Assembly: GCA_027596075.1 (NCBI GenBank)
Contig: JADGJC010000149.1
Span: 32,424-96,423 of the forward strand
Direction: 5' to 3'
Origin: Rhizophlyctis rosea
Taxonomy: Eukaryota; Chytridiomycota; Chytridiomycetes; Rhizophlyctidales; Rhizophlyctidaceae
Length of the DNA stretch: 64,000 nucleotides
This document shows, one piece after another, positions 29,149-64,000 of this stretch. Position 1 is the first letter of the stretch. Each line of letters starts with the position of its first letter. The notes below the pieces were generated by a model. That model was not told the origin of the DNA, ran no database searches, and saw only the letters and a program-made list of their open reading frames with translations. The translations under genes and the position numbers were made by a program.

Positions 29149-30907
29149 ACGGGGTCTTGTGTGGAGAGGTTGTTTGGGCATTGGTGTTGGGTTGGCAGCC
29201 ATAAGTCATGTTTCATGAGGGGGCAAGATATAGTGAGTTGGGGTGGTTTGTGATTCTTTTGCTACCTTATAATGGGATCGATTTTTCGGATGTGTGTGTA
29301 TAATGCAAATTGCTGGTTTCTCTCTATGGTTGGGAATCTATGCCGTTTTCGTATACGAATCTTGTCGGTTGTTTGTTGCCCTTGGTTATGAGAATTGATG
29401 GGTTTTGGGGTGATTGACAGGTCCTAGAGGTGAAGGGCTTGAAGGTGCATTGCACTTGTTGGCCGGTGCATATGTCCTTTTGGGAAGTACTTGCGTATTT
29501 GTTTGAGGTCAGCTTGCGGTGACATGCGTATCATCAAGTTGGTATGCTAGCTATGGAAAGAGGCACGTCTTCTTTTTCACTTTTCCCCCGTGCAACAGGG
29601 GCCTCTTCTTGTTGTCACCATAGTATAATGTGCTGCACTCGAAAAAAATTGAGAGCATCCGTGGGGTTGGAGGGAATGCATCTCGGGCAGACATGTGTCA
29701 TGCGGTTGCACCTGGGGCGTTGGCGACGGGTGGTGCATAAGGATTGCAACCCAATCAACATCGTCAATATTCAAGTTGCAACCTGACCTTGAGGGTTGTG
29801 TGGGGCCAAAGAGAGGCCGTATGGATAGGTGAAGCGCCAAGTTGCCAAAACAATCACAAGAATAGAACCGTCACGTCCTAATAGGGTCAGTCCGCGTTTG
29901 GATGAGGTACAAAAAAAGAAAACAAAAAGGCAAATTCACTGATTCTTCATAAACTGCTCATCAAGCCTCGATTTCCGCTGTCTTTCACCGAAGTTGGTGC
30001 TGTCGTCTCCTGCACTCCCCTTGGTTCGGGATATCATCACCAACATTTTCGTGTGGAGGCGACGGAGACTCAATGGATTTGCACATACCTTGCACGGGGA
30101 TTGAGCTACGCTGAGGTAGTGAATCTTGGAGTCGGCGCCGCGTGAGCCGATTATGTGCAAGCATATCGGTGAAATGCTCTTTATATCCCTCCCATGACAA
30201 TCATGTTTGTCACCACTGCACGTGAAATGCTTTCGTTCCATCTCGAGGATTCTCCTTTCCGGTGTTCAGATTGTGTGAAGGGTCGCAACTGTACTAACCC
30301 TCTGGCAGTTCTGTCACTTAGGTCATTCCGATCGCGGATAATATTTTTTCAACATGTTGTTTTGTTTGGTGGAGGTGGAGTTTACTTGTGTTATGCCTTT
30401 TTTATGGCAGGATACAGTCCGTCGGCACTGTACACCCAAGGACCCTTGAATGACTCACATGTCGCGCAGTCACCGCACCACCAAGCGATACCGATGTCCG
30501 TTTTCTCAGAGTTCAAAGGCGGTGACCAAGTGCCAATCCCACACCTGTCTGCTGCATGCTATATGTTACATCCTGGTTCCACCTCTGCAACAATATTGCC
30601 AGTCACATCTCCAAATTTTTGCTTTGAAGAAAAGAAAGGGCTAAGTGGAAGAAACGCCAATTGCACAGATGCGGAGCAGCTGCGCACGATGGGGAAGCGA
30701 CTTGGCCTCACGCTCTGTGCGCCACTCCAATGGCAAATAAAAAGGGGGTGCTTCGGGTCGAAACCCTCTCACAACCCACGCGTCGCAGAATCTGCAAGTG
30801 GTCAAATCCCCTCTCCCTCCATCGTTCACACAGTAGTTGTCGCATTGGAAGACACCTCACGAGTACTAACAGTCATATCTAAAACTTCTTACCCACTCCG
30901 GCCAACC
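29149..30907. other. Intergenic region upstream of the large acidic gene
   Basis: 1.75 kb. The downstream frame stays open through part of it (from ~30200), but composition and lack of conserved content suggest non-coding leader. No RNA gene or repeat recognised. Confidence 0.45.
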
Positions 30908-33900
30908 ATGCCCGACCATCCAGCCCTAGAGCCGACCGTCCCCACGATGGTCGGAATGGCCTACTGGGGCGCCCAACCAACTCAACGCCCTCGAAGTCAC
31001 GTTTCTGCCCTTCTCCACCGATTTGAAGCCGAGATATCCTCCAAAACAGGTCTAACACCCTGGTCAACACCGCTAACACACCACACCCTCCTCGACCGCT
31101 TCGCCCACTGCATCCGTGACCGTACCTTTCCCACCCCCATTCCAGGTTCATCCCTCCATGAGCAGTTCATGGGTAATTTGTCAGCGTGTACAAGGACGGA
31201 TGTTACCGCTGCGACGTTGAATGGGTATATTCGTGCGCAGAAGCGTGTGGATGTAGAGCAGGCTGTTGGGTTGGTGATGTCGTATATTGGGTGCAATGCG
31301 TGGCTGCTTGTAAAGGAGCTCGGAAACATTGTTGAGAAGAGTTGTATGTGGTTGGAAGAAAGGGATGGGACGGAGGGGTTGACGGAGGGGGAGAGGCGGT
31401 GGGTTTCGTTACGAGGGAAGATGGGAGCGTTTTTGAAGAGGATTGAGATGGGTGGTGCACTGCCTGAGGATTTTGGGCTGGAGGAGTTGATTGGTTTTGT
31501 GGGGAGGATTCGGCGGACGAGTGCTGCGAGGGCGGATCGGTGTATTCCTGTTGTGCCGTGGATGTATGAGCAAGGGGGACAACCTGTGCCGACGGTTATG
31601 ACGGATAATGTGCGGAGACCTATCGTGCCACCTGATGAAAGCTCCATCCACTTGTCCCGCAAGAGGTTCAACTACCTCAAGCGAACCCTGTGGCGAGCGA
31701 TGGGTGACCAGGATCCGGCTTCTATCCTACGCAGGAAGATCAAAGACCTGTCTGATAATTCCATGATCCAACTCGCAGATGAGACGTTAGATGCCTCCCT
31801 ACCCGACTTCTCCACCACAACAGACAAAGCAGCCCTAGCATTCACATTTATAGCCCACCAACGCCGTCTCCAACTCAAGATCGTCTCAGCGCCCTACGGA
31901 CACAGCTTCCTAGCCAAAGGTGAATCAGGAACATGGTCTCAGAACACCCCGAACATTCTATCGAGCTTCGAGGTCGCTCTAGCGGAAATGTCGGTTTCAT
32001 CGCCAAATCCGGATTACAGGACTCTTACGGCGATCATAACACCACCCAACATTCCGGCAACAGCGAGTATTGATGCGAAAACAACCACCATCCAAACTGA
32101 CCCACTAATCCGTGCACGGATCCTTGCCCACTCCGCCCTCAAAGGTCTCGACGCGACATGCGCCCTCCTCTCCTCCTGGGTTGACCTCCACTCCCGCGGG
32201 GACTTATCAAACCTTTCCTTCAAACCCGGCGTTAGTGGCGGGTCACGCGGACCAGTGGATGAATATAACCTCCTGATCGACGTATTGAGACGGTACCGGG
32301 ATCGGTATGGGGAGGCAAGGAAGGGAGATGGGGAGTTGAGGGAGTTGGAGTTAGGAAGCAGTGGGAAGTTCTTGGCGAAGGATATTATGGCTTGGAATGG
32401 GAGTTGGGGGGATGATGCTTTTGCGGGGGGGAAGGTGCCGGGGTGGATGAGGTGGTGGGAGGGGAGGAGTATAGGTGGGGTTGGGAGGGAGAGTGTTGGG
32501 AGGGGTGGTGTGAAGAGGGGGGAGAAGGAGAATCGGAAGGAGAGAGAAGAAGAGATTGAGGAGGAGTTGGGTACTGAGTATGATTTCGAGGGTGAGAGTG
32601 AGATTGGGGAAGAGATTGTTGCGGGGGGTAGTGTTGTTGAGAGTGTTGGGGAGGAGATTGTTGGTGAGGGCGATGGTGGGAATGACGGTGCTAGTGATAT
32701 CAGTTCGTTCCATGCCGATCGATACGGAGCATCCTTGTCTACACCACTCAACAACGGGAACAGCGTCCCAACGTCGAAACGGAGCAGTGTTGCGTACAGT
32801 ACACCTGAGGAAGACGTTCTCCCTTCCGAGGAGGAAGAAGACGATGAAGAAGACGCATCGGAAGCATCTACAGCCCACCGGGAGATGCAACGACGTATCG
32901 AGGAGTTGAAGCGGAAGGTTGCTGTTCAGCGGGAGAAGGCGGAAAGGTTGAAGAGGGAGAAGGATGAGAGGAGGAGGGGGGTTAAGGAAAGGGCTAGGAG
33001 GGTTGAGGAGGAGTTGAAGAGGGAGTTGGAGAGGTTGGGGAGGGTTGTTGGGAGGAGGGAGATGGAGTTGAGGGAGGGGTTGAGGGAGAGTGTGGAAGTT
33101 GAGACTGTGGCAGCGGAGAGGGGTGGTGGTGGGGAGGGGGAGGAGAAGGGAGTGGATTCTGTGTCGAGTTTTGGTGGGGCGAAGGAGGGGGTGCGGATGA
33201 ACGCGAGCGAGAGGGAGGTTGTGGATTCTGTGTCGAGCTTTGGGGGTGAGGGGAAGGAGGATATAATGGGTGAGAGTATTGGGGAGGATATTGTTATCGA
33301 AAAAGGGGAGGAGAGTGTGCGGGAGGATATTGCTGTTTTCTCGGAGGAGAAGGGAGAGGAGCCGGGTGGGAAGGCGGGTAGTGCTGAGGAGGCGGAGGGA
33401 GTTCGTGAGGAGGAGGATGGGTATGGGTATGATGAGGCTTCTTTTGCGGAGTATTCGGAGAGGGAGGAGGGGGGTAGGGAGAAGGAGAGTGGAGGGGTGG
33501 AGAGTGAGGGTGTTGGTGAGGTGGCGGAGGATTCGATTGCGGAGGAGATTGGAGAAGTCGAGAGTGTTAGTGATGAGTTTGAGGAGCGGGAGGAAGACAT
33601 TGGGATTGAGGGTGGGAAGGGAGCGGAGGAGAAGGATATGGAAGATGTTCAACCGGCTGCCGAGCCTGTGCAAGTTCTACGTGAAGATACTGGTTTGGAG
33701 GAGGTTACGACGACGCCACTTGGGGTGGACAGGTGGGAGGTTAAACCTTCCGGGAAAGAGGAGAAAGTTGTGGATGTGGAGGGTGGACGGAAGGAAGCGG
33801 GTGTCGAAGTGCCGAAAGGTGGTGGAGGTCAAGTTTCTGAAGAAGATATTGCGGAGGAGATTGAGGAGGGTGGGGTAGGGGAGGAGGAAGAAGAGAAGGA

Positions 33901-35699
33901 GGAGGAGAGTGGGGCGGTGCTGAAGGGTTGGAAAGGAGGTGACGGGGAGGAGAAGGGAGGAAAGGAGGAGGATGAGTATGGGTATGATGAGGCTTCTTTT
34001 GCGGAGTATGAGGAGGAGAAGATGGTGGCGGAGGAAACGAATGACGGGGGGAAAAATGTTGGAAAGGGTTCGGAAGGATTGGTCGAGGAAGGAGGGGAGG
34101 ATGTTGGTGTGGTTGGGAAGGCGGGAGAAGAGGACGTGCGTCGTAGCGTTGAGGAGGAGGTTGGGAGGGATGAGGAGAGCGTTGCGGTGGAGGAGACGAA
34201 GAAGGATGTTGAGGCCCATGAGGAGGGTTTACGAGAACATGTTGATGAGGAAGCGATTGAGGAAGCAATTGAGGAGGATATTGATGTTGGTGGTGATGGG
34301 GAAGGGGAGGAGGGGGCGGTGGGTAGTGGCTTAGTGGAGGGGGATGAGGACCATCGGTATGATGATGAAGAATTCGAGGATCTTTCGGAAAGGGTCGGGA
34401 CGGTTGATGAGGTTGGGGTTGTCGAGAAAGCAGGGGCGGTTAGTGAGGAGGTTGGGAAGGAGGTTGAGAGTGGTGATGAGGGGGACATTTCGCTCATGGG
34501 TATGGCTGGGGGTGTGAGGGCGGCGGATTTGAGAACGGAGGAAGTCGGTAGGGAGGTGGGAGAGCGGGAGGATGTTGAGGAAGAAATGATGGATGTGACG
34601 GATGGGATGGTTGATGATATGGTTAGGGATGCGATTGATGGTAAGTCTTTGATGGGCACGTCCTTTTTTGGTATCTTTGGTATCCCTTCTGATTCATATC
34701 TGTTGCTTAGCTATGGTGAATGCGCGGAACAAGAAGCTGGCCGTGGGAGAAATCACATCCGCGATCGTTCCTTCAGATGACATTGAAACAACAGCAGACG
34801 CGCATGAACGGGAGGAATTGATAAGAGCGGATGAGGGTCAGGCTGTTGAGGCCATCGAGGGCGAAGAAGAGAATGCAATGAGTTTAGCTGCCAAAGCAGA
34901 TGCCATTACGGAAATGATCATGGCGGAGTCATTTGCGGATGCGGTTGAAGGGGTTGGGCGAATGAAACGCATCACGCCAAAGCCCGGAGTCGTTCAAGCA
35001 CCCTCGCCTGACGCAGAAATCGAAGAAATCACCGAAACCCTTCCTGAACCCTCTCGCACACCTTCACCAGAACCCTCCATCCGCGCCCCAACACCCGAAC
35101 CCATCCAACCATCTCAAACCATCGCCCAATACGTCCGCGCCATCCTCGAAACCTACCTCCCCGCCGGCGACCTCCCCGACGGCCGCTACACCAAAGCCCC
35201 CATCATCCCCCGCACAAGACTCGACCTAATCCAACGCGCCCTCCCTATCCCCAACCTTTACAGCGACCCCACCTCCCCATTCCCCCTCCCTGCCGCCGCA
35301 GTCCGCTCGCAAACCCTCCTCCTCTTCAGCGCGACGAACGAAGCGTTAGGCAAACTTTTCGAAGGACATTGGAGGGAGATGCACGATCCTGCGCGGCATT
35401 TTCGGAGACGGAGGGGGATGGTGCCAAGAGCGTTGGGTAAGGGGGAAGTTGTTGAGAGGGTTGTTGGGATGGTGAGGGGGTGGAGTGGGTATACGGAGCG
35501 GAATGGGGAGAATTTGGATGAGCTTTTGATTGGGGAGGTTAAAGAGGAGGAGAGGAAGTGGAAGGGTGTTGGGGGTGGGGGTGGGGTGGGCGGTGGTGGG
35601 GGGGAATGGGAGGGGGTTGTTGCGGGGAGGGTTGTGGAAGGGCTGGTGGAGGAGTTGGTTGGGGATGCTGTTGGGGTGCGCGCGCCCCCTGGACGGTAG
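30908..35699 (+). CDS. Giant acidic, repeat-rich protein; weak CEP350-like C-terminus
   Basis: Two exons (30908-34640 and 34711-35699; GTAAGT donor, TTAG acceptor, phase 1) give 1573 residues. Start ATG 30908 is the first near the conserved-looking N-terminal part; an upstream start in the open frame is possible. Residues ~1-530 are mixed and probably folded. Then follow an E/G-rich stretch, a basic coiled coil (R-R-I-E-E-L-K-R-K-V...E-E-L-K-R-E-L-E-R-L), and ~500 very acidic residues with motif repeats: Y-G-Y-D-E-A-S-F-A-E-Y twice, D-S-V-S-S-F-G-G twice, and several I-x-E-E/D-I units. Exon 2 has a Pro-rich linker and a C-terminal segment with N-L-D-E-L-L-I-G-E-V followed by V-V-E-G-L-V-E-E-L-V. 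The coiled coil, S/E-E-x-I units and C-terminus recall centrosomal CEP350-type proteins, which would fit a flagellated fungus, but the link is weak. Confidence 0.6.
33410..34400 (+). repeat. Degenerate acidic peptide repeats in coding sequence
   Basis: Two copies of a unit coding E-D-x-Y-G-Y-D-E-A-S-F-A-E-Y (about 33413-33460 and 33968-34015) and a divergent third (Y-D-D-E-E-F-E-D-L, ~34355) lie in a GAG/GAA-rich purine tract. Confidence 0.65.
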
Positions 35700-37244
35700 T
35701 GTTTGTGTGTGGTTGTTTGTACATAGCTTGAGATAGAGGACTTCCTGTGTTGGTTGTTTGTTTATAGTCTGCTGGTGTAAATGCTAAGTTGTGTCGTTTG
35801 TCAGAGATCAAAAGGAAGTTTGGAGTTGATCTTCATCCCCGGAAACCGCAGGTTTCGCAGCACTCTTTCTTGTTTGATTCGGACTTGGACCATGAAAACC
35901 GTAATCTGAACATGGGTGGTTTTAACACGTGCTTCCCTCTAGCGTTCAAGCACGTCGGATTGAACGTTCGGTTTTCTAATGTGTTACAAAATGCCATCAA
36001 CATCTATATCTTCTTCCCCTTGACGTGCATGCTGGGCTTCCCGCGGGAAACAAAGCAAACAAAATGAGAAAAAAAAAAGGGTGGGGGGGGGGGTGTTGAT
36101 TTGTTACCATTTTCCAATCTCTTCCTAGTTTGTCGTCATTGTAAAGTCTCAATCTCTCCGTCGACCGTTTTTCAAGCTCTTCCGTTGGCGCACCTCCTAC
36201 GAGCTCACTGCGGACAGGTCTTGTTTGATCCAATGCCATCAGGATTCGTGAGTGAGCAGACTTAGCGGCACTCCCCTTTGAACTTCACTGCCGACCCCTG
36301 TCCGGATTTTCTAGAGCAAAACATGCTTTGCATTTACCGCGTTCATCGCTGTGTATTCGACAGGGAAGAATTTTTTCATGTAGGGTACATAAATGCTGGG
36401 GCTCTTGACACAGATTTAAGGTTTTGATTGTGAGGGGGAGCAAAATGAGTCAAATACAGAGTTCTTTGCCGCGGTTCAAGCTTTCGGCCAATCCAGCCAT
36501 GGAAATCACACATCCTTGAGAGAGTCCTAGTGCCTTAAGGTTATGTTATGTCTGGCTTCGTGCAAGTTGACCCCAGGATCTGGAACAGTTCTTTCAAACT
36601 CTAGCTAATTCTCCTCACAAACTGGCATGCCAGATTCCTGATATGGCTTGGACGACGCGTTCTTTGGTCAAGGGTCCTGACAACCAACACTTGAAACGCC
36701 CGCTTACACCAATGTATGACCCTTTTGGACTGCATCTTGATCATACATTGGGTGTTCAGTCTTGACTTGCAAAACTTTGCTACTCCAGGCCTTGACTGCC
36801 CGTGAGAGACCGCTCCGCGTTAAATAACCGCATAGTTTTGCATGCGCAACAGCAGGCTACCTTGTCATCGACCGAGCCCAATACGCCGGCTCAAGAGTTT
36901 CTGATTCGCCGATGAACAGTTACGTGTCATTCACCAACAGTTATGGGCGAGGCGAAGGGGTGTTGATATTATGACTTGATCCTGATGATTGTGAAAATGC
37001 CGATCAGGGATGGATATTTGACTTCAATAGCCGCAAAACACTTTAAAACCTTCGATTTTCTTTGAAACACTAATGTTTTGCATTCTCTATTATTTCTGTT
37101 CAGGCATTCTTTTTCACGTACCCGTAGGTTGCTCTCAAAACGCTATAGACAGCAATCCATTCGTACGTCCGATACGCCGCGCGATCAGCGAATTACAAAC
37201 AGGAATAGACGCACAAGCGTGGGAACATTACTGCCGCTCGAGTC
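35700..37244. other. Intergenic region
   Basis: 1.5 kb; contains an A-run/G-run tract at 36070-36095 and no recognisable gene. Confidence 0.5.
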
Positions 37245-38946
37245 ATGAACAGCTTACCGAAGGAGTTGCTTTTTCGATGCTTGGGTTTGGTGAGTGTCAG
37301 AAAGATGATGACGCAATGGGCCTCAATGCTAGGTCTTCAGACATGGCAAAACGGATACAAATGAAAGGGCACCGAGACCTGATGACTGTTGTGATGGTTG
37401 GCTCATCCACAATCAGACCCTAAATGACCAAATCCCTCCAATTCTTCCTTTCACCGATACAGGCCCATGCCGCAAACCCAGCACAGTACCAATACAACGA
37501 AGGAGCATCCTTGCTCTTCCTCATGAGTCAGGTGTCGCGTGCCTGGCGCATCACTACAATCGAACTCATGGACGGCGACACGCTCAATTTATCAATGTTT
37601 AAGAAAGATGTACAGAAAAAGGGAGATGCGTATTATCAGGCTTATCAGATGCCGGATGGGAGTAGACGGGAGATCGACAGTTGGGTGAGGATCGCTCATA
37701 TTTGTTGAGGATTCGCTTGGGATGCTGTTGCGGTGGAAGCTGATTTTTATAGATCGAAACTCCCTAGAATCGGGGCATCCTGACGTTCCTCCAAGATCCC
37801 CAGCGGCGCTCCCACCTTCGCGTTCTCCGCCCAAACCCCTCCGCCGAACACGCCATTCTCCATCCCAGGATGGCACCAGATACAATTCGAGCGGTTCTCG
37901 ACACCGTCAATCCTTCCCAAATCACCCACATATACCTCAACATCGGTCCTAGGGTCGCCAGCGTATTGGATTATGAGTGCATATCAGAATGGATGGAGGA
38001 ACGAGCAGCGAATCCGGAGAGTTCCAAGCTGCACACTTTATCGCTTTCGTTTAGCTCCGCCATGGTGCAATTGTCAGCCGTGAGGAACCGGTGCGAGGTT
38101 ATGATTGAGGAGAGCGATTATCAACCACTTGAACGACTTTGTTATGCAGCCGCACAAAGTGAGGTCGAAACCCTCCGGCTTGCGTTAAAGACAATGGGAC
38201 CATATCATCATGATACTATAGATAGAGTCAAAGGAGGGACGTATGTCAGGACTTGCTGGGCAGCCAAGCAATGGTGGCATTTGAAAACGTTGGAGATTCA
38301 GGGCAGAGGAGAGTTCCCTGCCCTTCACGCGGACACGGCGCGCGGGATTAGATGCCTCAAGCTCGATCGTATGAACGCAGACCTTTCCAAATTCCCTTCC
38401 TTGGTTGACGTCGAATACCACGGGGACGCCTTCAAAACTTTGGAAACGATCTCAGATGCAACTCTCACCCACCTTACCCGCCTATCCTTCCATCTGCTCG
38501 GTTCCCCCAACCCCATCACCGAACAATTACCAAAACCAATTGTCCCAACCGTCCACCGCGTCCTCAAGCAAATTGCCAACTTGCAATCTCTAGACCTTGA
38601 CTTTAACGAAATGACAAAAGAGGATGCACAGATGTACATCCAAAAGGCATCAAAGGGTGGCGGACTGCGTCACTTATCCTTAGCGCAACTCTTTCCTCTT
38701 GGGACTGTTGAGGGGTGGGTATCGTTTTTCCGGGATCTTGGGGGATTGTTGGGGCAGATTAGGAGTTTGAAAGTGGAGTTTAGGGACTATGCGGATGACC
38801 ATCCGGAGATGGTTGATGAGTATGGGGAGATCCCTGATGATTGGTGTTTCGGGTTTGTTTGTTGGTGGTGTTTTTTTGGTAGTTTTGTTTGGGGGGTGGG
38901 CCGGGGGGGTTTGGGTGGGGGTTGGTTGGACGGGTTTTGGGGTTGA
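37245..38946 (+). CDS. F-box/leucine-rich-repeat-like protein
   Basis: Three exons in phase: 37245-37289, 37463-37684, 37768 onward. Exon 1 is just M-N-S-L-P-K-E-L-L-F-R-C-L-G-L, the first half of an F-box; exon 2 supplies the second half (L-M-S-Q-V-S-R-A-W-R-I-T-T). Exon 3 is a long stretch of irregular leucine-rich segments (L-K-T-L-E-I, L-T-R-L-S-F, L-Q-S-L-D-L-D-F). F-box proteins recruit substrates to SCF ubiquitin ligases through Skp1. The gene resembles the intronless F-box gene at 58462 in order (F-box, W-R-I-T/A-T, then LRR) and is probably a diverged paralog. The 3' end is uncertain: a Gly/Trp-rich terminus to 38946 looks like read-through of an intron, and a splice to a tiny last exon ending about 38973 is possible. 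Confidence 0.65.
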
Positions 38947-60106: not shown

Positions 60107-63100
60107 CTACACATCCTTCCTCAAATGCCTCCCCCTCCTCCAAACATCCTTCTCCCTCTTCCCCTTCTCAACCTCCTCATCCTCCCTCGCAACCCTCCAA
60201 TGCTCATCCAACTCCCCATCCCCGTCCCCCTCCTTCCCCCTATAAAAGTCCCTAACCTCACTCCTAACCCCAACATGCGGCCATAAATCCCCCCAATGAC
60301 ACTTCCTCCCATCCCTCCAAACCCCCTTCCCATAAGCCCGCTGCGTAACCACCGCCCTCTCCATATTCCCCCGCGGCGTGCATGCGTCGATGACAACGTG
60401 GCCTTTGCGTTTAAGTGGGGGGACGTTGATGCGGGGCCAGGTGTAGGAGGTGGTGACGAGGTCCGAGGAGAGGGAGGTGGGGACGGGACGTTTACCCCGC
60501 CGGAGGACGACGTAAGAGTATTTGTGGTCTTCGTCGCCGGCTTTGGATTGTTTGACTTCGCGCATGCGTTTGGTGGTTTGGACTCGTTGGTTGAAGTGGC
60601 ACCAGGAGGAGCCGCGGGAGCGGGTCATGGGGCAGGTTGCTTCGTGTGGGCACTGAGATATCGAAACAACAATATCAGTTCGACTTTGATTCAGGTGATC
60701 GTTTATGCAGCCATCCAAAGAAGGAAACCGCAATGTGACACCAGCAGCCGAAAGCAAAAACTCGTCTTCCTCAATGCTTTGGAACACTTACCGGCGCAAC
60801 AATATGAACGCCCTTCCCCTGCTCCCCTTGCTGCTGCGACTTCTCAAACTCCTCCGCCAAAATGAGCTGCCGCGCCGCCGCAATCTGTCCAAATCCTATC
60901 GGCGTTCCGCGTTCGATCAAGATCTACCAAAATACCGAGTTCAACCACATGCTGCCGGGGGAACACATACAGGACCAATCCCGTAAAACCACACCACAAA
61001 CCCCCAAAACACAGCCACGAAAAAAAAAAAAACATAGCAATTCAGAACTCACCAACATATCCCCCGTCAACCCCCACAACTTCCTCACAACCTCCTCTCT
61101 AACCGCATCACTAGCCAACTCACTCAACGCATACGCAGCAACAACCAACCCCGGCTTCTCCTCCCCCTCCATCGTCCCCCCCGGCAAAACCCTCCACAAC
61201 TCAACCCCCCGCCTCTCATCCTCTCCAACCGGACTCCTCTCAAACCCAAGCATCCGCTCCGCAATATCCAACATACTCTCCGAAATATCCACTCCAACGC
61301 TCTTCTCCAACGACGGGAACGTCTCGTTAGCAGCCCAGATGGCTGTTCCCGGCCCCGTGCCGTAGTCGAGCATACGGGTGGGTGCGAAATCGGGTGCGCG
61401 TTTGCGGAGTTCGGTGAGGATGGTGTGGAGGGCGGCGTAGGTTACGGGGAGGCGGGTGGTGAGGTAGGCGAGGGATTCGGCCGGGCCGTAGGTTATGTTG
61501 TGAGGTTCTAGGTGGTTTTGGCGGGATTGGGTGGGTGTGAGGGTGGAGGTAGCTGTTTGGACAAGAAGTGAGAAATCGAGGAGTGTTTTAGTCCCGGTCA
61601 ATAAACGTATCCATAATCTGCAAAAAGCATTCCCGCACCTGGATTCTTTTTCAAATGCTCCGAATGCTTGCTCAAAAATCCCTGACTCTTCAAACTCTTA
61701 AAAATCCGGTCCTTACCAGGACGCATCCATTTGGCCTTTTGGCCCGCAGCGACTGTGTGAGTGGCGTGCTGCAGTGCATCAGGTATGATCACCATGCCGA
61801 TGCGGTTGGTCCCAAATCGTGCTTCAGGAGTCAAGCGGCGAAGACGTCCGGAGAGACCTTTTTCTTCTCCTTCTTCCTCTGCTTCTTCTTCTTCCTTTTC
61901 AGCTTCATCGTTGGCGGCGTTGCGAGACTCGGTGGGAGTTGGGGGCATAGGTGTTTTCGTTAGCATGGCTTCTGTGACTCCATCGCGATTATGTTCAGTC
62001 AGTGAATTGCAAACCTCCCACGACCAAATTACCAAAAAACTCACCAGCCTCACCCAACCTCCTCACACTCGTCGAAAACGCCCTAACCTGACTCACCCCT
62101 CCCACACTCGTCCCAAACCCCAACCCCCCCACACGCCCACCCCCACTACTCAAAACCCCACTCGCAGCCTCCATAACCCGCCTCCCACGCTCCACCTCCC
62201 CTCTCAACTTCTCATAAACCCCTTCATCAAACCGATACTTCCTAACCAACCGGCCCCTAAACAAATTCCGCACATGCGTTCCCAGATTCGTAAAACTGGG
62301 CTCGCGCCGGATCCAGACATAGATCGATGATGCCGTAAGAGTCGTTCCGAGGGTTAGGAGGTATGCGACGGGTTCCATTAGGTCCCAGCCGAGCTGTTTG
62401 GAGTCGATCAAATTTCAGTGTGTCAGCTAATCCATTCTACACTTATATACCCTATCCTGAAAGCTCGCCAAACGCCGTCCTGAAAAAACTCACCTGCGGC
62501 ACCAAATAAGCCATAACAGCAAACTGCCCCACCAAAAAGACCCCAACACCCCTCTTAAACCATCTCACGCTCCTCTCAATCCGCCCCTCAATCTTCCCCT
62601 TATCCGATTCCAATTTCGCAAGACTCGTCTCATTTGCCGCCAGAACAGAAGAGACGGACGAGAGGTGTGAAGATAGATCGGTGCTGTCGATTGTCAGACC
62701 TTGTGCCTGGGGCGGGTGTGAATGAGAGTGGCGGTGAACACCTGTATAGAGCAGCTGAACTTGTCCGCTTAAAAATGCGGAAATAGGCGTATTGGCGAGC
62801 GTTTGCGGTGCATGTATAGATGATGGTGACGATGTATTAGATGTAGAAACGACTCGAACTCTTCCCAAAGTAGGGTACTCCTCCCGCAAGTTTTGTACGA
62901 GATCTGCCAAAGAGTCTTTTGGTGATATTTTGAGGATACATAGTTCCAGGCTGGTCGGTGTGGATGGCAGAGGCGGGTCGGCGTGGAGGGGTTTTGATGG
63001 GTCTTTGGGGAGAGTTGTGGGGTTGGCGTGGAGACGGGGGTGAGCGGGTGGGAGACGGATGGGGATGTGGAGGAAGAGGGATGGGGATGAGGATGGTGTT

Positions 63101-63340
63101 GGGGAGAGACGGACTGCTACTTTATCATATGTTGCTTTGGGGGGTGGTGTGTGAAGGTTGGTAAGCATTTACAGACCGAACGTCCCCAAACAGAATCTGA
63201 TACGTACTATGACTGTGCGACGATGTCGTTGCGTGCCTACGGGTACCAACTGACGCATGGACACAGGGTACCCAGGGTGAGGATGTTGCGCCCCGGACGG
63301 GCCTTAACTGCAATTGAAGACAGCGGAGACACAGATGCAT
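60107..63340 (-). CDS. Mitochondrial calcium uniporter (MCU) joined in frame to Rsm22/METTL17
   Basis: Seven in-phase exons: 63340-63208, 63134-62494, 62393-62045, 61971-61639, 61552-61053, 60923-60792, 60652-60107; 877 residues if spliced as one. Exon 1 is an Arg-rich, acid-free presequence (M-H-L-C-L-R-C-L-Q-L). Exons 2-3 are MCU: N-terminal domain, coiled coil, TM1 (G-Q-F-A-V-M-A-Y-L-V-P), the selectivity motif W-D-L-M-E-P, and TM2, then Y-R-F-D. Exon 3 ends R-A-F-S-T-S-V-R-R-L, a presequence-like stretch, at a perfect GTGAGT donor. Exons 4-7 are Rsm22: F-G-T-N-R-I-G-M-V, L-D-Y-G-T-G-P-G, A-Y-A-L-S-E-L, L-I-E-R-G-T-P-I-G-F, Cys cluster C-P-H-E-A-T-C-P and W-C-H-F, S-Y-V-V-L-R-R-G. MCU imports calcium; Rsm22 assembles the mitoribosomal small subunit. 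Without the intron the MCU frame stops at 61995. Two overlapping genes remain the alternative. Confidence 0.72.
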
Positions 63341-64000
63341 TAGCGTATGGACAATTACACAACTTACAGCCCCGGCCCTTCCCACGGACTTCCCCACGCC
63401 AGTGGGCGCAAACCCATACCTTCGATAACGACATGAGGTGCACGGAACAAACACAGCACACGCAACACGGGAAGCAGTCTTTATATGCCTGTAAGTTGCT
63501 ACCTCCTCGCCTGCAGTCGCCGTCGTGCCAGATTCGGCCGCAGAATGTTCTAAATGTTTACATGTGGGCAAGAGCACGAAACGGAAGAAGCGAAGAGCGA
63601 AGGAGGGGAGAGAGACTGTGAGAGAGTCACGAACTTTCACAGCCTGTGATGTGATCAATGATGATGAAGTGGCGCAGTAGTAAACTCAAAAAACATTGGC
63701 AAACCACTGGTCTTCATCACGTAAGCATTGGTATACAGCCCTGTCCCTGCCTGCGTCTAATTTCTGTGATACCTTCCACCTCCACTACCTGCGAGGCTAC
63801 TACAAAAAGAAAAATTGGAATGCCGCACGAAGTACCTAATTCAGGCATTTATTTACTCATATTTGATTACACATACTACAGAGAGGAAATAGGTAATGAA
63901 TCCTCATTCATCAATACGGACCAAACCCCATAACGGGCCAGGCACTCACGGAAAAAAGCATGAACTATACTACAAAACAAAAAACGCATATCAAAAGAAA
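63341..64000. other. Right edge, upstream of MCU-Rsm22
   Basis: 660 bp holding the MCU promoter; only short unsupported frames. Confidence 0.45.

Follow-up and report, generated by a model that had tools for sequence, protein, structure and literature searches.

A Candidate MCU-Rsm22 Fusion Gene in Rhizophlyctis rosea and Its Possible Product, a Tandem Mitochondrial Precursor

Introduction

Rsm22/METTL17 is a mitochondrial protein that works in mitochondria. In S. pombe it is part of the tandem protein Rsm22-Cox11, in which Cox11 comes after Rsm22, the primary paper on this protein being that of Khalimonchuk (2006). Rsm22/METTL17 is described as an iron-sulphur dependent mitoribosome assembly factor, its four conserved cysteines are reported to bind a [4Fe-4S] cluster, and the S. 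pombe tandem protein is reported to be cut apart after import (PMC12375894). The R. rosea locus analyzed here resembles this system in that Rsm22 appears to share its reading frame with a mitochondrial protein of the inner membrane; it differs in the identity and order of the partner, which is an MCU-family protein located before Rsm22.

Both halves of S. cerevisiae Arg5,6 are enzymes of one pathway, a point in which it differs from the R. rosea locus. Arg5,6 is reported to be made as a tandem precursor cut internally by MPP, and internal targeting-like segments have been sought in such proteins (PMC8847149). R. rosea would share with Arg5,6 the tandem mitochondrial precursor and the internal MPP cleavage, the latter being a proposal in the present case. 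In grasses, SDH2 and RPS14 share a primary transcript and a targeting peptide, and the precursor is reported to be processed between the two parts (PMC1543663). Here an inner-membrane complex subunit is combined with a small-subunit mitoribosomal protein, much as R. rosea pairs an MCU-family protein with Rsm22; however, RPS14 derives from the mitochondrial genome, lies in an SDH2 intron and is produced by alternative splicing, whereas the R. rosea parts are arranged in tandem and the simplest reading requires no alternative splicing.

Neither tandem mitochondrial precursors nor fusions that involve Rsm22 are new in themselves. The literature searched, with most subscription journals outside its scope, contained no report of an MCU-Rsm22/METTL17 fusion. 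If true, a second and unrelated fusion to an inner-membrane protein, in a fungus only distantly related to S. pombe, would point to some benefit for Rsm22 of being produced together with membrane partners.

Locus and Gene Model

The window, meaning the whole stretch of 64,000 nucleotides analyzed, belongs to an R. rosea assembly of 44.1 Mb in 634 contigs, and a database lookup assigns the species to the order Rhizophlyctidales. In the gene model, eight exons on the minus strand, to which the positions of the gene given below refer, join into one frame of 871 codons without internal stop, and the deposited R. rosea Rsm22 (P0001) matches the C-terminal 501 residues of the joined protein without a difference.

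The MCU end of the model comprises (i) exon 1 (63420..63434), 15 nt coding for M-S-L-S-K, the proposed start of the MCU presequence; (ii) exon 2 (63208..63307), the remainder of this presequence-like segment; (iii) exon 3 (62494..63134), which covers MCU before the pore motif, ends at residue 252 and holds the opening part of the Pfam MCU match; and (iv) exon 4 (62045..62393), which completes this match and carries the pore motif L-G-W-D-L-M-E-P, followed by a linker in which a motif scan located R-A-F↓S-T (the arrow marks the putative cut). Exons 1 and 2 were placed by eye, exon 1 being the least certain part of the model, and an ATG at 63168 that shares the frame of exon 3 could serve as the MCU start instead. 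Joined-protein residues 1-41 contain no D/E and five R/K. About 50 bp 5' of the proposed MCU start, a pattern scan disclosed TATAAA (63480..63485), a possible promoter element by consensus match, which is not functional evidence. The first-pass annotation of this DNA had located W-D-L-M-E-P in an exon at 62393-62045 and counted it as the third; the location stands, whereas the exon becomes the fourth in the present model, which adds the 15-nt first exon and the second exon (63434-63420 and 63307-63208).

The fusion intron (61972..62044; 73 nt, GTGAGT...CTGAC...TCACAG), assessed by gene model, intron comparison and a shuffle control, leads into the Rsm22 end, which rests on the gene model and alignment, with Pfam in addition for exon 6. 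It comprises (i) exon 5 (61639..61971), coding for an acidic Rsm22 N-terminal segment and the conserved F-G-T-N-R-I-G block; (ii) exon 6 (61053..61552), with the methyltransferase-like core; (iii) exon 7 (60792..60923); and (iv) exon 8 (60107..60652), with the C-terminal part, the four conserved cysteines and the stop TAG. The span 62393-61639, singled out earlier as the join, corresponds exactly to exons 4 and 5 and the intron between them.

A fusion gene coding for a tandem mitochondrial precursor with internal cleavage is the most likely reading of the locus, and we give it about an even chance; for a fusion at the gene level, irrespective of whether the product is cut or uncut, the chance appears somewhat better than even. 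One eight-exon transcription unit would yield 871 residues comprising a presequence, an MCU-family membrane protein, a targeting-like linker and Rsm22/METTL17. The product would be imported via the MCU presequence and the processing peptidase would cut it a second time near V-R-A-F↓S-T-S-V-R-R-L, so that the MCU part would stay in the inner membrane and Rsm22 would be freed into the matrix for small-subunit mitoribosome assembly. This reading supposes that most transcripts lose the intron by splicing, that a single polypeptide is made and that this polypeptide is cut. The facts at the sequence level are the presence of both domains, their common frame, a good intron, the sole Rsm22 locus found, an unsuitable annotated start and a cleavage-like motif. 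Given splicing of 62044-61972, two mitochondrial proteins lie in one open frame, and R-A-F↓S-T provides an internal MPP-type site, the targeting character of which is weak by charge.

The MCU Part

The MCU part matches Pfam MCU (PF04678) with 55.1 bits against a cut-off of 30.8 over joined-protein residues 201-315. Its D-x-x-E motif, L-G-W-D-L-M-E-P, aligns with the W-D-I-M-E-P or W-D-V-M-E-P of solved channels, the flanking membrane segments having been judged as hydrophobic stretches only. The pore segment reads L-G-W-D-x-M-E-P-V as in 6dnf, a fungal channel, and the 42-residue segment scores best against this structure (24.3 bits) versus 22.8 bits for 6xqn, an animal channel; longer queries from the window MCU, in contrast, score clearly higher to 6xqn (37.1 vs 23.8 bits for 6dnf, and 34.1 vs 25.7).

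R. rosea has a second MCU gene (L004 973-2101, contig C159), coding for 351 residues by a two-exon model. The C159 protein displays an animal-like pore motif, W-W-E-Y-S-W-D-V-M-E-P, in which W-W-E-Y-S-W-D is as in 6xqn, and scores 111.8 bits to 6xqn versus 93.2 to 6dnf. The genome also contains an EMRE-family match (L007, G000:C366:14301-14486; E 3.5e-7), which is over the Pfam cut-off; the EMRE match and the animal-like MCU on C159 suggest that R. rosea may have a working uniporter.

EMRE is reported from only three zoosporic fungi in the dataset of PMC7423614, which keep an animal-like MCU together with a paralogue, MCUP, for which Ca2+ uptake was not detected in yeast assays (PMC7423614). 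Because the C159 copy is the animal-like one (W-W-E-Y-S-W-D), the window copy may, by elimination, be a candidate for the fungal paralogue MCUP. The L-G-W-D pore shared with 6dnf, and an R. rosea pattern of MCU plus EMRE like that of the three zoosporic fungi, are consistent with this assignment, whereas the preference of the longer queries for 6xqn over 6dnf departs from it. To our knowledge, there is no MCUP with an Rsm22 tail; if the window MCU is MCUP, the fusion would be a first hint of the context of this paralogue.

The Rsm22 Part and Its Annotated Start

The Rsm22 part scores 229.2 bits in Pfam Rsm22 against a cut-off of 23, over profile positions 2-275 of 275 and joined-protein residues 504-815, and is matched by the solved METTL17 8csp with E 7.4e-44. 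Four cysteines (C321, C327, C338 and C411 in P0001 numbering), shared by all 10 sequences of the alignment, fit the putative [4Fe-4S] cluster set. A search of the R. rosea genome returned no other Rsm22 match, nor did it bring up another allele or a duplicate of the locus with which substitution patterns could be compared.

The database record begins Rsm22 with M-L-T-K-T at the ATG at 61964..61966, which is joined-protein residue 371. The first 30 residues from this start include nine acidic and three basic ones, giving a net charge of -6, below that of all 18 relatives in a hand-picked panel, where the same N-terminal stretch ranges from -3 to +6 and is positive in 16; the two non-positive values belong to Gaertneriomyces (-1) and to an apparently truncated Mortierella record (-3). 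The charge panel (n = 18) and the cleavage-site panel used below (n = 17) were both chosen by hand from 167 proteins, the latter without P0007, a record starting inside the region common to the relatives; Polychytrium and a second Globomyces record are absent from both. The earlier view that Rsm22 on its own has no presequence and an acidic start is in line with these values: the N-terminus opened by the annotated start is not presequence-like, and the MCU part would supply a presequence if the intron is spliced.

Since this is the sole Rsm22 match found and the protein is mitochondrial, yet the annotated N-terminus is acidic, the public R. rosea METTL17 record (P0001), which starts just after the fusion intron, probably starts too late. 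The frame entered upstream through the fusion intron is the MCU frame. In Fimicolochytrium, Rsm22 displays a basic, acid-free start followed by an acidic stretch, a layout suggesting that the acidic part in R. rosea is the start of mature Rsm22 and that the targeting part lies upstream.

Nested genes would account equally well for the missing Rsm22 presequence. An Rsm22 promoter would then lie inside the MCU gene, with the mRNA starting in intron 3 or exon 4, translation from the ATG at 62174 (R-R-V-M-E-A-A), the same intron spliced and the MCU tail acting as the Rsm22 presequence. This ATG in exon 4 is in frame and is followed by 33 residues to R-A-F↓S-T, but the N-terminus that it opens has E at position 2 and a net charge of 0 in 30 residues. 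Intron 3 contains a TATA-like element, TATATAAG (62442..62449), a candidate internal promoter element that is the only match to TATAWAWR on the minus strand within 63900-59900; the pattern scan gave 10 matches in the whole window on both strands, so that the element may be due to chance, and six other ATGs lie between it and the ATG at 62174. Furthermore, only an early end would keep transcripts begun at the MCU promoter from being spliced into the fusion. No A(A/T)TAAA signal was detected inside the gene by pattern scan, an absence that carries no weight because none follows the Rsm22 stop either. We consider nested genes unlikely.

A presequence could also reach Rsm22 through alternative splicing, with exons 1-2 joined either to exons 3-4 (MCU) or straight to exon 5 (Rsm22), the two products having a common presequence. 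The end of exon 2 and the start of exon 5 have the same phase and join in frame, as would happen about 1 time in 3 by chance, and the product would begin with 52 D/E-free residues. Such an arrangement has a precedent in the common targeting peptide of grass SDH2-RPS14 (PMC1543663), but demands that two exons be skipped and that the MCU message have a separate end, and it leaves the cleavage-like motif of exon 4 unexplained; its probability appears very small.

The Joining Intron

The donor GTGAGT, beginning at 62044, and the acceptor TCACAG, ending at 61972, are both present on the minus strand as first proposed, and the resulting G/AA join indeed stays in frame and enters Rsm22. The same donor occurs in two of the six other modeled introns of the gene. 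A branch-like CTRAY site is found in the fusion intron and in three of the six others, a feature that is not decisive because three of the seven modeled introns have no match; in the fusion intron, which ends in CACAG, CTGAC lies 27 nt from the 3' end, compared with 29 nt in intron 3.

Preservation of the frame was rejected as evidence of fusion in its own right: a total of 41 GT..AG joins of 50-160 nt are open and in frame, and therefore frame alone proves little and the quality of the splice sites counts. In dinucleotide shuffles of 214 bases, an in-frame joining intron without stop that combines GTRAGT, CTRAY and YAG appeared in 5 of 4000, rising to 18 of 4000 with the donor relaxed to GTRAG and to 26 of 1000 with any GT; these figures are rough, the shuffles keeping the overall composition of the 214 bases, which is itself uneven (G-rich, then mixed).

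The quality of this intron, matched in only those 5 of 4000 shuffles, argues against two ordinary genes 28 bp apart, an arrangement in which the apparent intron would remain unspliced, MCU would end at 61995 and a cryptic or internal signal would target an Rsm22 that starts at 61966. By reading of the open frame, retention of the intron would end a 384-residue MCU at the TGA at 61995..61997, and the gap of 28 bp noted in the first-pass annotation is that between this stop (61997-61995) and the annotated Rsm22 ATG (61966-61964). A terminator and a promoter would have to share very little space in such a gap. The database model P0001 does place the Rsm22 start at 61966, but this start is acidic, unlike those of relatives, and we judge the two-gene arrangement improbable.

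The Linker and Its Cleavage-Like Site

At the end of exon 4, residues 328-366 form a stretch of 39 residues without D/E that contains V-R-A-F-S-T-S-V-R-R-L. This linker is glycine-rich and has only four R/K in its 39 residues, which makes it a weak presequence by charge; it ranks only fourth in length among the acid-free stretches of the joined protein (after those of 63, 41 and 40 residues) and did not stand out in a sliding charge profile along the fusion.

R-A-F↓S-T at residue 356 is the only strict match to R-x-[FYIL]-[SA]-[ST] in the 871 residues. The motif RX(F/Y/I/L)↓(S/A)(S/T) is given as that cleaved by ICP55 after MPP (PMC8847149), and the residues before the intron, previously described as resembling a cleavage site, fit the strict MPP/Icp55-type motif in V-R-A-F↓S-T-S-V-R-R-L. 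The motif alone is not rare: shuffling of the 92-residue linker produced it in 470 of 20000 cases (2.4%), and the Rsm22 bodies of 17 relatives contain four in 7707 residues. From R-A-F↓S-T to the conserved Rsm22 block there are 62 residues, a distance within the range of 42-152 residues at which 12 of the 17 relatives have loose sites ahead of the block; the other five, in which no loose site precedes the block, all belong to the panel's seven chytrids, so that the geometry rests mainly on non-chytrids and the comparison is weakened.

The same sequence facts would also fit a stable fusion, an uncut 871-residue protein through which each MCU assembly would bear a matrix-side Rsm22 and mitoribosome assembly would be tied to the inner membrane. 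Both MCU termini face the matrix, and the MCU match stops (at residue 315) about 105 residues short of the conserved Rsm22 block (421). If true, such a chimera would anchor small-subunit assembly at an inner-membrane MCU assembly and lock the level of MCU to that of Rsm22. The linker, however, contains a good cleavage-like motif, and the comparable Rsm22-Cox11 is reported to be cleaved (PMC12375894). By analogy, the S. pombe Rsm22-Cox11 and grass SDH2-RPS14 precedents favor cleavage over a tether, and a stable fusion seems a rather slim prospect next to the tandem precursor with internal cleavage.

Distribution Among Relatives

The MCU-Rsm22 fusion has so far been seen in one genome only. According to Pfam annotation, an MCU domain was present in 0 of 72 Rsm22 relatives retrieved with the 871-residue query and in none among the 120 listed of 156 in a second search; the two lists together hold the 167 distinct proteins, 294-1121 residues long, and the searches scored only the 7985 and 7991 candidates that had the most words in common with the query. 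Among the names of the Rsm22 relatives listed, R. rosea is the sole member of the Rhizophlyctidales, and for this reason the counts do not cover its closest relatives. With relatives that have Rsm22 without MCU and mostly a basic start of their own, the arrangement looks lineage-specific and is not refuted. The MCU half, used as a query by itself, found nothing among 7996 scored candidates; this search had little power, because no MCU of any species was retrieved.

Other extended or joined Rsm22 records were encountered in the database. The Polychytrium Rsm22 (P0002), of 847 residues, displays by eye a long N-terminal extension that is secreted-looking, unrelated and without MCU; it was not counted as a fusion, being probably an annotation merge whose actual start appears to be an inner M-S-L-R-M-L-Q. 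Rsm22 is also joined to PF02548 in a Vanrija record (P0059), to PF00226 (DnaJ) in eukprot records (P0070, P0072 and P0108) and to PF00202 in P0066, and some of these joins may be annotation merges.

Compositional Features of the Window

The skew between G and C at third codon positions runs from C-rich to G-rich within exons of the MCU-Rsm22 gene and resets at the next, in 7 of 7 exons tested (60107-63307, minus strand, the 15-nt exon being left out). The same sawtooth appears in 14 of the 19 long open frames of the window, three of the 19 coming from this gene. Elsewhere in the window, the skew of G over C reaches 0.81 in 500-base steps between 32500 and 35000, mostly in a 1535-codon open frame (30173-34777), and three short tandem-repeat rows lie within 30000-38000.
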